Position numbers and translations under genes: made by a program. The notes beneath the pieces are model-generated. The model searched no databases. It was given only the letters and a program-made list of their open reading frames with translations, and was not told the origin of the DNA. DNA of 53,504 bases from Clostridia bacterium DTU030 (lineage in GTDB: Bacteria > Bacillota > DTU030). Of this stretch, positions 3,048 through 53,504 are shown in pieces. How positions within the stretch are numbered: the stretch's first letter is position 1; the number at the start of each line of letters is the position of its first letter. The stretch covers positions 4,657 to 58,160 of the forward strand of contig LFSN01000130.1 in the NCBI GenBank assembly GCA_001513125.1, given 5' to 3'.

Positions 3048-3287
3048 AAAAAACCCTCACCTCCTGCAATTGAGCATATTGCAGGGACGAGAGCTTTTCC
3101 CGCGGTTCCACCCTGCTTGACCGATCTTCTCGAACGGCCCCCTTCATTAGTATCGCCTCCAGGAGCGCCCTTCGCCGGCCCGCCAGTACAGGGCTCGCAG
3201 CTCCCCCGGATACCAGGGGAACCCTGCTCTCTGAAAAGACAGCACCGGTTACTCCTCTCCCTCATCGGCAAGGAAGGGATAAATTTG
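3048..3287 (-). promoter_or_regulatory. T-box riboswitch (glycine), leader of glyQS
   Basis: The minus strand carries the T-box sequence AGGGTGGAACCGCGG (complement of 3101-3114), followed by the usual CTCTCGTCCCT segment. Next comes a terminator hairpin (CCTGCAAT/ATTGCAGG, 3066-3085) ending in a T-run at 3048-3053. Upstream lies a stem I-like region with GAGGAGTAA and CAGAGAGC. A GGC triplet (3169-3167) following GAAG aligns with the specifier position of known glyQS leaders, so glycine is the expected ligand class. The short distance from stem I to the T-box fits glyQS leaders lacking stem II. The specifier assignment is by comparison with the remembered B. subtilis leader. Confidence 0.93.
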
Positions 3288-8035: not shown

Positions 8036-10015
8036 TTAGCCAGTTTCCCCAACCTGCCCGGCCCTTTTCCGGCGCAGGTGCTGCATAAGGGTAATGGCGC
8101 CGAGAACGGCAATGCCGAAGGCGTCGGTAGCAAGCCCTGGTTTTATCAGGGCCAGGGCAGCCACAAAAAGGAGTATCCGCTCATAGATCCGGCAGTAGGT
8201 GAGGAGATAGTTCTCAATGGAAGCGGACAATGCAATTACACCAATACAAGCACTGATAAAGGCAATGATGGCATCGACGGGCGTTGTATTAATCAGGAGC
8301 AGGTCCGGGGACAGAGCAAAGATATAGGGTATCAAAAATCCACCCGAAGCCAACTTGAGGGCAGTTATCCCTGTCTGCATGGCATTGGCGCCGGCAATCC
8401 CCGCTCCGGCATAGGCAGCCAGGGCCACCGGGGGGGTAACGTCGGCAATTATGCCGAAGTACAGGATGAAGAGGTGGGCCGCCATTACCGGCACACCCAA
8501 CTGAGTCAGGGCCGGTGCCGCCATGGTGGCAAGCACAATATATTTTGCCGTCGTGGGCAGACCCATTCCCAGTATTATAGAAGCAATCATAGTAAAGAAG
8601 AGGGTCAGGATCAGCTCACCCCTGGCCAGGGCAATAATCAAAGTGGCCACCTTCAGCCCCAGCCCCGTGAGGGTCACCACACCCACAACGATCCCTGCCG
8701 TGGCACAGGCCATGGCCACGGACACCGAGCCTCTGGCCCCCTCGGCCAGGGCCTGGATCATGTCCCTGGCATACTGCTGAATTTCAATCCGGCTGCTGTT
8801 GCCCAGCAGGTATTGAAGAACAAGATCGACGATACCAATGAGAATCGTACCAACAATCCCCCAGTAGGCAGCCTTTAAAGGGGTAAAGCCCCGCACCAGG
8901 AAATAAATAATAAAAACAACGGGCAAGAGCAGGTACAATTTCACAGCTAGCTCTCGGACTGAGGGCATTGCACTCCGGGGAAGCCCCCTCAGCCCCAGCT
9001 TGCAGGCTTCCAGGTGGACCATGGTCCCTACGGCCAGGTAATAGAGGATGGCCGGAATGGCTGCAGAGATAATAATCTTAACATAGGGAATGCCGGTGAA
9101 CTCGGCCATAATAAAGGCCGCTGCACCCATAACCGGCGGCATGATCTGCCCGCCCGTCGAGGCCGCCGCCTCCACCGCCCCGGCAAAGTGGGGCTTATAG
9201 CCAACCTTTTTCATGAGGGGGATGGTAAAGGCACCGGTGGTCACAGTATTGGCGACGGAACTCCCGGAAATGGAGCCCATCAAACCGCTGGCCACCACCG
9301 CCGCCTTGGCAGGGCCACCCCGCATGTGCCCCGTCAGAGCAAAGGCCAAGTCAATGAAAAACCGTCCCACGCCCGTCTTATCCAGAAAGGCACCGAATAG
9401 GATAAAGAGAAAGACATAGGTCGAGGAAACGGCCAGGGGTGTGCCGAAAATCCCCTCTGTGGTCAGGTAGGTTTGGTAGATTATCCGCTTCAGATCATAT
9501 CCCCTGTGGGCAAGCATTCCCGGCATATAGGGACCAAAATAGGCGTAGAGGAGGAATATTATGGCAACAATCGGCAGTTCCGGGCCAATAGAGCGGCGGG
9601 TGGCCTCCAGGACCAACAGAATGGCTATGAAACCCATAACCAGGTCCATCTGAGTCGGGGCCCCGGCCCGCAACACCAATTGATCGTAATTGGCCAGGAT
9701 ATAGACGCCAATGGATACGCCCAAGATGGCCAGCAGGTAATCATAGATGGGAATCTTGCCCTTGTCCCCCCCCTTGGTCATGGGATAGAGGAGGAAAACC
9801 AGGAGGAAAGCAAAGCTGAGGTGGACTGCCCGCTGCTTCATAGCCTGCAGGATTCCAAACCCAGCCGTATAGAGGTGAAAGGCAGACATGGCCACAGCAA
9901 TGATAAAGATAAGGGTGGCCGCAATCCCAACGGGACTGCGCAGGCGAGAAGTTTCGAGATCATACTTCTGTAAAAGTTCTTCTACCTGCAGTTCTTCCTT
10001 CTTCTCATTAACCAT
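8036..10015 (-). CDS. TRAP transporter fused permease (DctQM, 4TM/12TM type)
   Basis: A 659-residue polytopic membrane protein in which the small (DctQ) and large (DctM) permease subunits are fused. The N-terminal third has four hydrophobic segments after a soluble leader. The rest shows the DctM signatures GAFLDKTGVGRFFIDLAFAL, SGLMGSISGSSVANTVTTGA and ILGMGLPTTAKYIVLA. It uses an ion gradient to import a substrate delivered by the TAXI binding protein encoded upstream. ATG start at 10015 has AGGAGAG and overlaps the DUF1850 stop by 8 nt. Substrate cannot be read from sequence; TAXI systems elsewhere have been linked to organic acids and glutamate-like compounds. Confidence 0.93.
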   Translation of the reverse strand: MVNEKKEELQVEELLQKYDLETSRLRSPVGIAATLIFIIAVAMSAFHLYTAGFGILQAMKQRAVHLSFAFLLVFLLYPMTKGGDKGKIPIYDYLLAILGVSIGVYILANYDQLVLRAGAPTQMDLVMGFIAILLVLEATRRSIGPELPIVAIIFLLYAYFGPYMPGMLAHRGYDLKRIIYQTYLTTEGIFGTPLAVSSTYVFLFILFGAFLDKTGVGRFFIDLAFALTGHMRGGPAKAAVVASGLMGSISGSSVANTVTTGAFTIPLMKKVGYKPHFAGAVEAAASTGGQIMPPVMGAAAFIMAEFTGIPYVKIIISAAIPAILYYLAVGTMVHLEACKLGLRGLPRSAMPSVRELAVKLYLLLPVVFIIYFLVRGFTPLKAAYWGIVGTILIGIVDLVLQYLLGNSSRIEIQQYARDMIQALAEGARGSVSVAMACATAGIVVGVVTLTGLGLKVATLIIALARGELILTLFFTMIASIILGMGLPTTAKYIVLATMAAPALTQLGVPVMAAHLFILYFGIIADVTPPVALAAYAGAGIAGANAMQTGITALKLASGGFLIPYIFALSPDLLLINTTPVDAIIAFISACIGVIALSASIENYLLTYCRIYERILLFVAALALIKPGLATDAFGIAVLGAITLMQHLRRKRAGQVGETG

Positions 10016-50637: not shown

Positions 50638-53114
50638 TATTTGACCACAATATTGACCAGTTTTCCAGGTACATGGATGATCTTCACAATCTCCTTGCCC
50701 TCTGTCAGGGCCCGGATCCTCTCCAGGTCCAGCACCCTTGTTTCCAATTCCTCCTGGGAAATGCCCACCGGAACCTGGAGGCGCTCCCGCAGTTTTCCGT
50801 TCACCTGGATTACTATTTTAACCTCCTCCCGAACAAGGGCAGCGGGATCATAGACGGGCCAGTCCTGCTGGTGAACACTGCCATCATGGCCCAGGATGCG
50901 CCACAATTCCTCCGTCAGGTGGGGGGCAAAGGGGGCCAGCAGGAGGACGGTCTTCTCCAGGACTTCCCGGAGCAGGGCCGGGTTTTGTTCTGCCAGCTCC
51001 AGTTTATCCTGATATCTATAGATGCCATTGACCAGTTCCATGATGGCACTGATGGCCGTATTAAAGTTAAACCTCTCAATATCCTCGGTGACCTTCTTGA
51101 TGGTTTCATGGAGCTGGCGCCGGAGGCCAGTATCTTCTTCTGAGGCCGACTCCTTAGCCTCGCCTGCCGCCTTTATAAGATCGACATTATTGTTCACGAG
51201 CCGCCAGACCCGGTTGAGGAAACGCCACGCCCCTTCTACCCCCTGGTCGCTCCAGTCCAGTTCCCGCTCCGGCGGGGAGGCAAAGAGAATAAAGAGGCGG
51301 GCCGTATCGGCACCGTATTTTTCAAAGATCTCTTCCGGTGTCACCACATTCCCCTTGGATTTGGACATCTTGGCTCCGTCCTTGATCACCATCCCCTGGG
51401 TCAACAGGTTGGTGAAGGGTTCCAGACACTGGACGAGGCCGGCATCGTACAGCACCTTGGTAAAAAAGCGGGAATAGAGGAGGTGGAGGACCGCATGTTC
51501 AATGCCGCCGATATACTGGTCCACAGGCATCCAGTAGTTGACGGCTTCCTTCCCAAAGGGAGCCTCTTCGTTCCCGGCATCGGTATAGCGGAGGTAATAC
51601 CAGGAAGAACAGATAAAGGTGTCCATGGTATCGGTCTCCCGCCGGGCCGGCCCACCACACTTGGGACAGCTGGTATGGACAAATTCCCCTACCTGGGAGA
51701 GGGGTTGAACAGCTCCTTCTTTTAAGACCACATCCTCCGGCAGCATTACCGGGAGCTCTTCCTCGGGCACCGGAACTGTCCCGCACTGGTCGCAGTACAC
51801 AATGGGTATGGGCGCACCCCAGTAGCGCTGGCGGGATATCAACCAGTCCCTGAGCTTATAGCTGACTGCCCGCCGGCCGATACCCTTCTCTTCCAGGTAA
51901 TCGGCAATGGCCTCCTGGGCCTCCGCCACCGGCAGGCCGTCAAAGGGACCGGAATTAACCAGGTAACCGTCGGCAGCATAGGCCTCAGTGAGCTCTTCCG
52001 GCACCGGTGCATCCTTCTCGGGAACAATGACGATCCTTTGCGGAATCCCATATTTTTTTGTAAAGGCAAAGTCCCTGCTGTCATGGGCCGGTACACCCAT
52101 GACGGCACCGGTTCCGTATTCCATCAGGACATAGTCGGAAACCCAGATGGGTACTTCTTCGCCGTTGACGGGGTTGATGGCATAGGCCCCCAGGAAGATT
52201 CCCTCTTTCCCCAGCTCTTCCCCGTCCTTGCTTGCGTCCCGCCTCTTGATGGCCTTTTTGACAAAATCCCCCACGGCCTCTTCCCGTTCCGTTCCCCTTA
52301 CCAGGTCCATGACCAGGGGATGTTCCGGCGCCAGGACCATGAAGGTGACCCCGAAGAGGGTATCGTGGCGGGTTGTGAAAACGGTAATTTTCTCTTCCCG
52401 GTCTTTGATGGAGAAGACCACCTCGGCTCCTTCGCTGCGGCCGATCCAGTTTTCCTGCATGATCTTAACGGGCTCGGGCCAGCCTTCTAAGAGCTCCAGG
52501 TCCTTCAGGAGGCGATCGGCATAATCGGTAATTCGCAGGAACCACTGTTCCAGTTCCTTCTTTTCTACCTGGGTCTCACAACGCCAGCAGCTCCCGTTTA
52601 TTACCTGCTCATTGGCCAGGACTGTCTGGCAGGAAGGACACCAGTTCACAGGGGCTTTTCGCCTGTAGGCCAGGCCCCGGTGATAAAAGAGCAGGAACAA
52701 CCACTGGGTCCAGCGGTAGTAATCGGGCAGGCAGGTTGTTACCTCCCGGTCCCAGTCATAGCTGGTGCCCAGCTGCTGCTGCTGCCGGCGCATATTGGCA
52801 ATATTGGCGGCAGTCCATTTGGCAGGATGGATACCGTGTTGGATGGCGGCATTCTCTGCCGGCATGCCGAAGGCATCCCAGCCCATGGGATGGAGTACAT
52901 TGTAGCCCTGCATTGTTTTGTAGCGGGCGACGACGTCGCCAATGGAATAGTTGCGGATATGGCCCATATGCAGGGCTCCAGAAGGATAGGGAAACATCTC
53001 CAGTACGTAGTACTTGGGTTTATCGGCAGTCAGGGTGACCTTGTACTGCTTTCTGTCTTCCCAATACTCTTGCCACCTGGCCTCTATGCTTTTAAAGTCA
53101 TAGTGCCCCTCCAT
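50637..53114 (-). CDS. leuS: Leucine--tRNA ligase
   Basis: An 825-residue class I synthetase. The HIGH-type motif is [17 protein letters not shown] zinc-type insert has CPSC and CWRC, and the CP1 editing domain includes [16 protein letters not shown] and [16 protein letters not shown]. The KMSKS loop is [13 protein letters not shown]. The C-terminal anticodon domain ends [12 protein letters not shown] at 53114 follows AAAGGAGGAGTCAAGT. Expression passes through a leucine T-box that contains a tRNA-Ala gene. Confidence 0.98.
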
Positions 53115-53144
53115 ACTTGACTCCTCCTTTTACCACAAATATAC

Positions 53145-53453
53145 AAAAACCCCTCGAACCTGACCTTTGCCAGGGACGAGAGGCTAATTTCCCACCCGCG
53201 GTACCACCCTGCTTGGTAAGAAACAAAATGGTGGAGCTGAGGGGGCTCGAACCCCTGACCTCCTGAATGCCATTCAGGCGCTCTCCCAACTGAGCTACAG
53301 CCCCATCTTGTCTTTACCCACTTATTATCTTCCATAACTCCAGGGCGAGTTCGGCACATCCTCTCTACCGGTTTCCACCAGCCACCGGCTCTCTGTCAAG
53401 GAGTATCTGCCTACTACTCCCCTTCATTGCCCGGGAACCCATATTTATTTACA
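53145..53453 (-). promoter_or_regulatory. T-box riboswitch (leucine) of leuS, containing a tRNA gene
   Basis: Stem I runs from ATGAAGGGGAGTAGTA (complement of about 53413-53428) through the apical CAGAGAGCCGGTGG (53395-53382). It ends at GAACTCGCCCTGGAG near 53338. The triplet CTC at 53349-53347 directly after GAA is the specifier, hence leucine. The T-box AGGGTGGTACCGCG is the complement of 53197-53210. CTCTCGTCCCT and a terminator (CCTCTCG...CGAGGGG plus TTTTT at 53149-53145) follow. A tRNA-Ala gene fills 53229-53304, between stem I and the T-box, where stem II/III elements are expected. Confidence 0.93.
53229..53304 (-). tRNA. tRNA-Ala (anticodon GGC), inside the leuS T-box leader
   Basis: A 76-nt gene folding as a complete cloverleaf. 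The acceptor is GGGGCTG / CAGCTCC with a G3:U70 wobble, the alanine identity element. The D arm is GCTC...GAGC, the anticodon stem CCTGA/TCAGG has loop ATGGCAT (anticodon GGC), and the T arm is AGGGG-TTCGAGC-CCCCT. Discriminator A and encoded CCA complete it. No terminator lies between it and the flanking T-box parts; the only strong promoter visible is that of the leuS leader. Confidence 0.97.
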
Positions 53454-53459
53454 GCCCAT

Positions 53460-53488
53460 ATTATAAAAGAAGTCCCGGGAAAAGTCAA
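53460..53488 (-). promoter_or_regulatory. Sigma-A promoter of the tRNA-Ala/T-box/leuS transcript
   Basis: Minus-strand TTGACT (53488-53483), 17-nt spacer, TATAAT (53465-53460), about 25 nt before stem I of the T-box. Confidence 0.93.
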
Positions 53489-53504
53489 GTATCGACTCAG
53501 GCAA

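Follow-up and report, generated by a model that had tools for sequence, protein, structure and literature searches.

The window, by which we mean the whole 53,504-nt stretch of DNA analysed, carries on its minus strand a leuS gene with a composite leader. Read 5' to 3', the order is promoter, leucine T-box stem I with a CUC specifier, tRNA-Ala(GGC), antiterminator, terminator and leuS (Table 1). A previous sequence-only reading had proposed that a complete tRNA-Ala(GGC) lies inside the leucine T-box of leuS, and both this proposal and all of its coordinates hold. ARAGORN called a tRNA-Ala(GGC) at 53304-53229 (-), and the Rfam tRNA model scored the embedded tRNA at 66.1 bits against a cut-off of 29. 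The RF00230 T-box model matched 53436-53169 (-) over model positions 1-219 (85 bits, E=4e-19), while the N-terminal 401 aa of the leuS product scored 603 bits against TIGR00396, for which the cut-off is 548.

Table 1. Features of the tRNA-bearing leuS leader, in transcript order.
Feature	Position	Strand	Basis
Promoter, sigma-70 type, TTGACT-N17-TATAAT, for the whole leader	53460..53488	-	11/12 matches
T-box stem I region with AGTAGTA and AGAGAG elements (limits approximate)	53328..53436	-	RF00230 alignment
Specifier codon CUC (Leu) in ...GAA-CUC-GCC...	53347..53349	-	Read from sequence
RRRxG purine motif, AAGUG, 5' of stem III	53319..53323	-	Motif described in PMC7583486
Stem III 5' strand, GGUAA-AGACAA	53308..53318	-	Covariation across loci
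tRNA-Ala(GGC), complete, with G3:U70, A73 and encoded CCA; stem III apical loop	53229..53304	-	ARAGORN, Rfam
Stem III 3' strand, UUGUUUCUUACC	53215..53226	-	Covariation across loci
AA directly after the stem III 3' strand	53214-53213	-	Discriminator motif
Antiterminator, AGGG-UGGUACC-GCG ... CGU-CCCU; T-box bulge UGGU matches an ACCA 3' end	53172..53210	-	RF00230 alignment, sequence
Terminator hairpin, CCUCUCG...CGAGGGG, and U tract	53145..53183	-	Sequence and fold
leuS, leucyl-tRNA synthetase, 825 aa	50637..53114	-	TIGR00396

Both antiterminator segments, AGGGUGGUACCGCG and CGUCCCU, were aligned by the RF00230 model, and the terminator hairpin overlaps the antiterminator 3' strand; this hairpin was missed by a simple terminator scan because its loop is long. 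The T-box match falls below the RF00230 gathering score of 93 bits, probably because of the lost stems and the insert. Loci that carry the tRNA insert and keep stem II score 100.7-142 bits, and two further tRNA-bearing loci (L042 and L136) also lie below the cut-off. The core features that were looked for are present, namely a specifier matching the regulated gene, an antiterminator/terminator pair and the RRRxG-stem III-AA arrangement. By these features the window leader is a predicted leucine T-box, with everything tested for that class except the Rfam cut-off and the optional stem II elements. A consensus promoter had also been noted, and a promoter scan agreed: it found this site and nothing else resembling a promoter in 53100-53504, the stretch from stem I to the tRNA included; a separate promoter isolating the tRNA, named beforehand as a possible refuter, was rejected on the same scan. 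As had been anticipated, the tRNA-Ala would be transcribed regardless of leuS readthrough, because the terminator comes only after it. Among the tRNAs recovered from the incomplete window genome there was no tRNA-Leu(GAG), which the complete genome of a relative (G005) does have.

Other T-boxes occur in the same genome. A second, weaker one lies in the window at 3080-3274 (-) (L015, 59.5 bits), upstream of an ORF at 2971-2093 (-), and two tandem T-boxes about 60 nt apart occupy contig C56 at 8400-8615 and 8676-8908 (L001/L002), both over the Rfam cut-off and with ordinary stem III hairpins.

The embedded tRNA looks functional from its sequence. The AlaRS identity elements G3:U70 and A73 are present in the window and kept in 69/69 loci, CCA is encoded in 57/69, and the base preceding G1 is U in 50/69. 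By an Ala(GGC) gene pattern, a single such gene was detected in 61 of 66 genomes, single-contig genomes among them, and this one gene was the embedded copy wherever the matches listed permitted checking. An Ala(CGC) gene also exists, and we do not claim the embedded copy as the only Ala tRNA. The window genome is an exception to the single-gene rule, in that its embedded copy is joined by a second Ala(GGC) gene adjoining rnpB. A gap of 12 nt separates this second copy from rnpB, which lies upstream of it in the same orientation (L186:73-526, contig C30), and the same pair is found in a same-genus genome (L188:209-661); given the shared strand and the 12-nt distance, RNase P RNA and this tRNA, a substrate of the enzyme, are probably transcribed together. 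A tRNA search of the single-contig genome G005 recovered no Ala(UGC) and no Ile(GAU), perhaps having missed rRNA-spacer copies. In a thermodynamic fold of the whole leader, stem III forms, with a pairing probability of only about 0.2-0.45 for the cloverleaf acceptor. tRNAs are often mis-predicted in such folds, and the weak cloverleaf suggests that folding order may matter.

The tRNA had been thought to replace the stem II/IIA-B/III region, and here the earlier reading has to be corrected. The tRNA lies, by comparative sequence evidence, in the apical loop of stem III, which is kept as an enclosing helix, while stem II/IIA-B is mostly kept in distant relatives that bear the insert. The sequences flanking the tRNA pair with each other: the mean native duplex energy is -11.0 kcal/mol, compared with -7.16 +/- 0.28 kcal/mol for partners swapped between loci, and 0/2000 permutations were as low as native. 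In a helix-blind alignment of 56 distinct rows, anchored only on the RRRxG motif and the AA before the antiterminator, standard pairs fill 78% of cells, as against 59% when shuffled and 26-44% in slid registers. Changes on both sides of a pair occur in 88 cells versus 26, and the covariation score is 0.60 versus 0.26, a value reached in 0/500 shuffles. Both anchors are present in 65/69 loci, and 48 of these 65 have at least 5/6 pairs. The 5'-RRRxG-stem III-AA-3' arrangement is the T-box discriminator motif, of which stem III is an indispensable part (PMC7583486). For the locus L038 (142 bits), the Rfam alignment includes both strands of stem III and places the tRNA as an insert in the loop between them. 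The leucine T-boxes of relatives that lack the tRNA are ordinary, with a small stem III at the same spot, as in the empty site of L281 (GAGUG-GGUAA-UUUA-UUACC-AA, against AAGUG-GGUAA...[tRNA]...UUACC-AA in the window), and the other T-boxes of the window genome have an ordinary small stem III as well. The idea that the tRNA is a mere neighbour of the T-box is ruled out by the stem III covariation across the tRNA and by these empty-site relatives. In L099, L132, L145, L146 and L163, stem III next to the motif is only short or weak, so the idea that stem III clamps the two halves together after excision may fail in some loci.

The loss of stem II and IIA/B is, by the motif evidence, a separate matter. 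A CCGUUA-type stem IIA/B motif, sought with a loose pattern, is found in 54/69 related loci and is absent in the window's class. Since most distant relatives with the same insert keep the motif, its loss is read as separate from the insertion and confined to the window lineage and a few others. In two loci from Coprothermobacterota and Caldisericota (L136, L146), stem I is very short and the stem III enclosing the tRNA is weak, possibly marking a reduced form.

Misassembly at this locus, the other refuter named in advance, is itself refuted by conservation across many assemblies: the same leader lies inside contigs of two same-genus genomes (G002, 92% identity; G001, 88%) and of many distant genomes. 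With the leader as query, the same arrangement was found in 12/12 of the closest genomes and in many distant families, and single-contig genomes with this layout include G005, G027, G059 and G020. The covariance check suggested earlier gave matches to this leader with both T-box and tRNA models, the former below its gathering score, and the insert recurs in leuS leaders of relatives. Genomes from across the phylum, 300 in all, were searched with a generic pattern in which a tRNA T-arm is followed 24-54 nt later by a T-box core; 68 matched, the reversed control pattern giving 0-1 hits per genome. After G085 and G246, whose only match looked like chance, were removed by eye, the arrangement stands in 66 of the 300 sampled genomes, from 23 families. 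This is an undercount, as G038 was missed despite a T-box of 124.8 bits with a tRNA inside. In the phylum of a Chloroflexota genome (that of L092), about 22 of 201 genomes match, nearly all of them visibly a tRNA and a T-box. Named carriers include Desulfotruncus, Desulfofundulus, Desulfallas, Thermosyntropha, Syntrophomonas, Tengunoibacter and Sphaerobacter, and there are further carriers among MAGs labelled Coprothermobacterota, Caldisericota, Armatimonadota and Actinomycetota.

The pairing of tRNA and regulator is constant throughout this range. Among the matches listed, the embedded tRNA is Ala(GGC) in all 69 distinct loci, and the specifier is CUC in 69/69 (68 by regular expression and L095 by eye). 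A generic any-tRNA scan found no other convincing tRNA type ahead of a T-box core among the matches listed; two Ser tRNA matches before T-box cores (L134, L151) were judged to be chance. These leaders serve leuS directly, or else an operon with an AMP-ligase, ilvE or GNAT gene ahead of leuS. Where another gene comes first, leuS was found downstream in 8 of 9 loci checked and was not found in the stretch of L055; non-leuS targets for the AMP-ligase-, ilvE- and GNAT-first loci were rejected on this count. In the Desulfotruncus/Desulfofundulus/Desulfallas group (L055, L078, L118, L157), an AMP-dependent ligase-like gene comes first, and in L078, L118 and L157 leuS lies about 2 kb further downstream of it. 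The first gene is ilvE-like in L109 and L148 and GNAT-like in L111, L127 and L163, with leuS downstream.

When presence of the insert is mapped onto a 110-row leuS tree, 15 changes are required, of which well-supported branches force at least 9; shuffled labels require more, 25.7, and the tree cannot tell gain from loss. The constancy of the Ala(GGC)-Leu(CUC) pairing speaks for a single old origin followed by losses or leader transfers, rather than for repeated invention. As judged from its distribution, the arrangement is widespread and old, and no one-off.

In common with the leucine leuS T-boxes of RF00230, the window leader has an AGAGA-type stem I element, a CUC specifier, the RRRxG-stem III-AA motif, an antiterminator/terminator pair and leuS downstream. 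It differs from them in holding a whole, functional-looking tRNA gene for another amino acid in its stem III loop, and stem II and IIA/B are missing in the window lineage. The glyQS T-box of B. subtilis likewise combines stem I, a short linker, stem III and an antiterminator with no stem II, and shows that stem II/IIA-B are dispensable (PMC6197855, PMC7583486); unlike the window leader, it has an ordinary small stem III loop without a tRNA. A 2020 review noted unexplained insertions in every T-box domain, stem III included (PMC7583486). T-box leaders with lineage-specific insertions or a tandem layout resemble ours in having insertions, and no description that we found names a tRNA gene as the insert. 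Our literature search, which covered openly licensed papers and left subscription literature outside, found no description of a tRNA gene inside a T-box, in keeping with the earlier remark that no example was known. The regulator is a leucine T-box and the gene an ordinary tRNA-Ala(GGC); it is their combination that we did not find described, which does not prove it new. In mixed tRNA-mRNA transcription units, RNase P and 3' enzymes cut the tRNA from a longer transcript. There the tRNA sits beside a coding sequence, whereas in the window leader it sits inside a regulatory fold that must join both of its sides.

We favour the reading that this is a bifunctional leader, at once a leucine-specific transcriptional T-box controlling leuS and the primary transcript of a tRNA-Ala(GGC) placed in the stem III loop, and we put its probability at roughly 0.8. 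Points that speak against it are the weakly predicted cloverleaf, the loci whose stem III is short or weak, the second Ala(GGC) gene of the window genome and the lack of tRNA-Leu(GAG) among the tRNAs recovered from that genome. What we read from sequence is the anatomy, how far it is conserved, the covariation of stem III and the marks of function in each part; the order of events is our inference from these. RNA polymerase would make stem I, next stem III with the tRNA, and last the antiterminator or terminator. Every transcript from the promoter would carry the tRNA, making the supply of tRNA-Ala independent of the leucine decision. With the polymerase near the terminator, binding of uncharged tRNA-Leu(GAG) at stem I would stabilise the antiterminator, a decision that probably precedes RNase P and 3' processing. 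The tRNA would then be cut out as an ordinary tRNA. The layout supports the earlier suspicion of a tension between maturing the tRNA and keeping the riboswitch intact. Because stem III brackets the tRNA, excision would open the stem III loop and need not part the sensor from the antiterminator; the two stem III strands could remain annealed, leaving the leuS mRNA with a processed 5' end.

A leaner account, to which we give appreciable weight though less than even odds, takes the leader as two nested and independent units. The T-box would work, the tRNA would be excised without a part in control, the terminator would double as the tRNA terminator, and the layout would persist since a genome that lost it would be left without its only Ala(GGC) gene. 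The single promoter and single terminator serving both parts, the usual single-copy status of the tRNA and the patchy spread across the leuS tree (at least 9 of the 15 changes being forced) all agree with this. However, compensatory changes maintain the helix that encloses the tRNA, so the riboswitch is under selection to work with the tRNA inside. The nested-unit account is a minimal version of the bifunctional leader rather than its opposite.

We tentatively entertain, as a somewhat improbable reading, a two-piece riboswitch. In it, RNase P and 3' processing would remove the tRNA from the stem III loop, base pairing in stem III would rejoin sensor and expression platform, and leucine control or the lifetime of the leuS mRNA would respond to when, or how completely, tRNA-Ala matures. 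Maturation of the tRNA might also act as a second regulatory input, with cutting before or after tRNA-Leu binding setting T-box function or the life of the leuS mRNA. This we regard as unlikely. Sensor and antiterminator do lie on opposite sides of the tRNA, and T-box leaders can be endonucleolytically processed, as with the B. subtilis thrS leader cut by RNase Y/J1 (PMC11313650, PMC3542257). That leader is only loosely comparable, since no tRNA is released from it and the enzymes that cut it are not those of tRNA maturation. Against a maturation input, co-transcriptional decisions probably precede cleavage, and spacer lengths vary between members. Another candidate, in which the embedded ACCA end pairs in cis with the UGGU bulge as a self-antiterminator, was rejected as not general, 12/69 loci being without an encoded CCA.

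It is very improbable that the tRNA fold is chiefly a structural domain of the riboswitch, a rigid stem III cap aiding pausing or folding, rather than mainly a tRNA source. Its position in the stem III loop and its identity are indeed constant, and stem III belongs to the discriminator and is a known pausing site (PMC7583486, PMC6197855). Yet the GGC anticodon is kept throughout alongside the identity elements (69/69) and sole-gene status in 61/66 genomes, all of which points to selection for translation and not for a cap. Across loci, 5' spacers of 0 to about 18 nt and 3' spacers of 0-29 nt separate stem III from the tRNA, a variation that leaves no fixed geometry and fits excisable cargo better than a rigid cap, and relatives manage without the tRNA altogether. 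An assembly or binning artefact, or a decayed T-box beside a tRNA gene, can be set aside with near certainty: the window does end at a contig end and its T-box score is below the gathering cut-off, but the same layout recurs in dozens of independent assemblies, single-contig genomes and isolates included, several insert-bearing relatives score 100-142 bits, and CUC is kept in 69/69 loci.

For annotation, the finding is a caution: with a tRNA inserted and stems lost, such T-boxes can score under the Rfam cut-off. It also supplies a natural precedent for putting folded RNAs into stem III, and indicates that the working fold of a tRNA-sensing riboswitch can accommodate a functional-looking tRNA gene. 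The arrangement has been kept in several bacterial phyla, always with Ala(GGC) as the tRNA and Leu (CUC) as the specificity. In these leaders a single RNA has to switch a gene and also serve as precursor to a tRNA whose gene is often the genome's only one of that kind. This raises the question of whether a riboswitch can regulate while, or after, an essential RNA is cut from its middle, and offers a natural view on the timing of RNase P relative to co-transcriptional decisions. If the two-piece reading were true, the production of one tRNA would be coupled to the charging of another.
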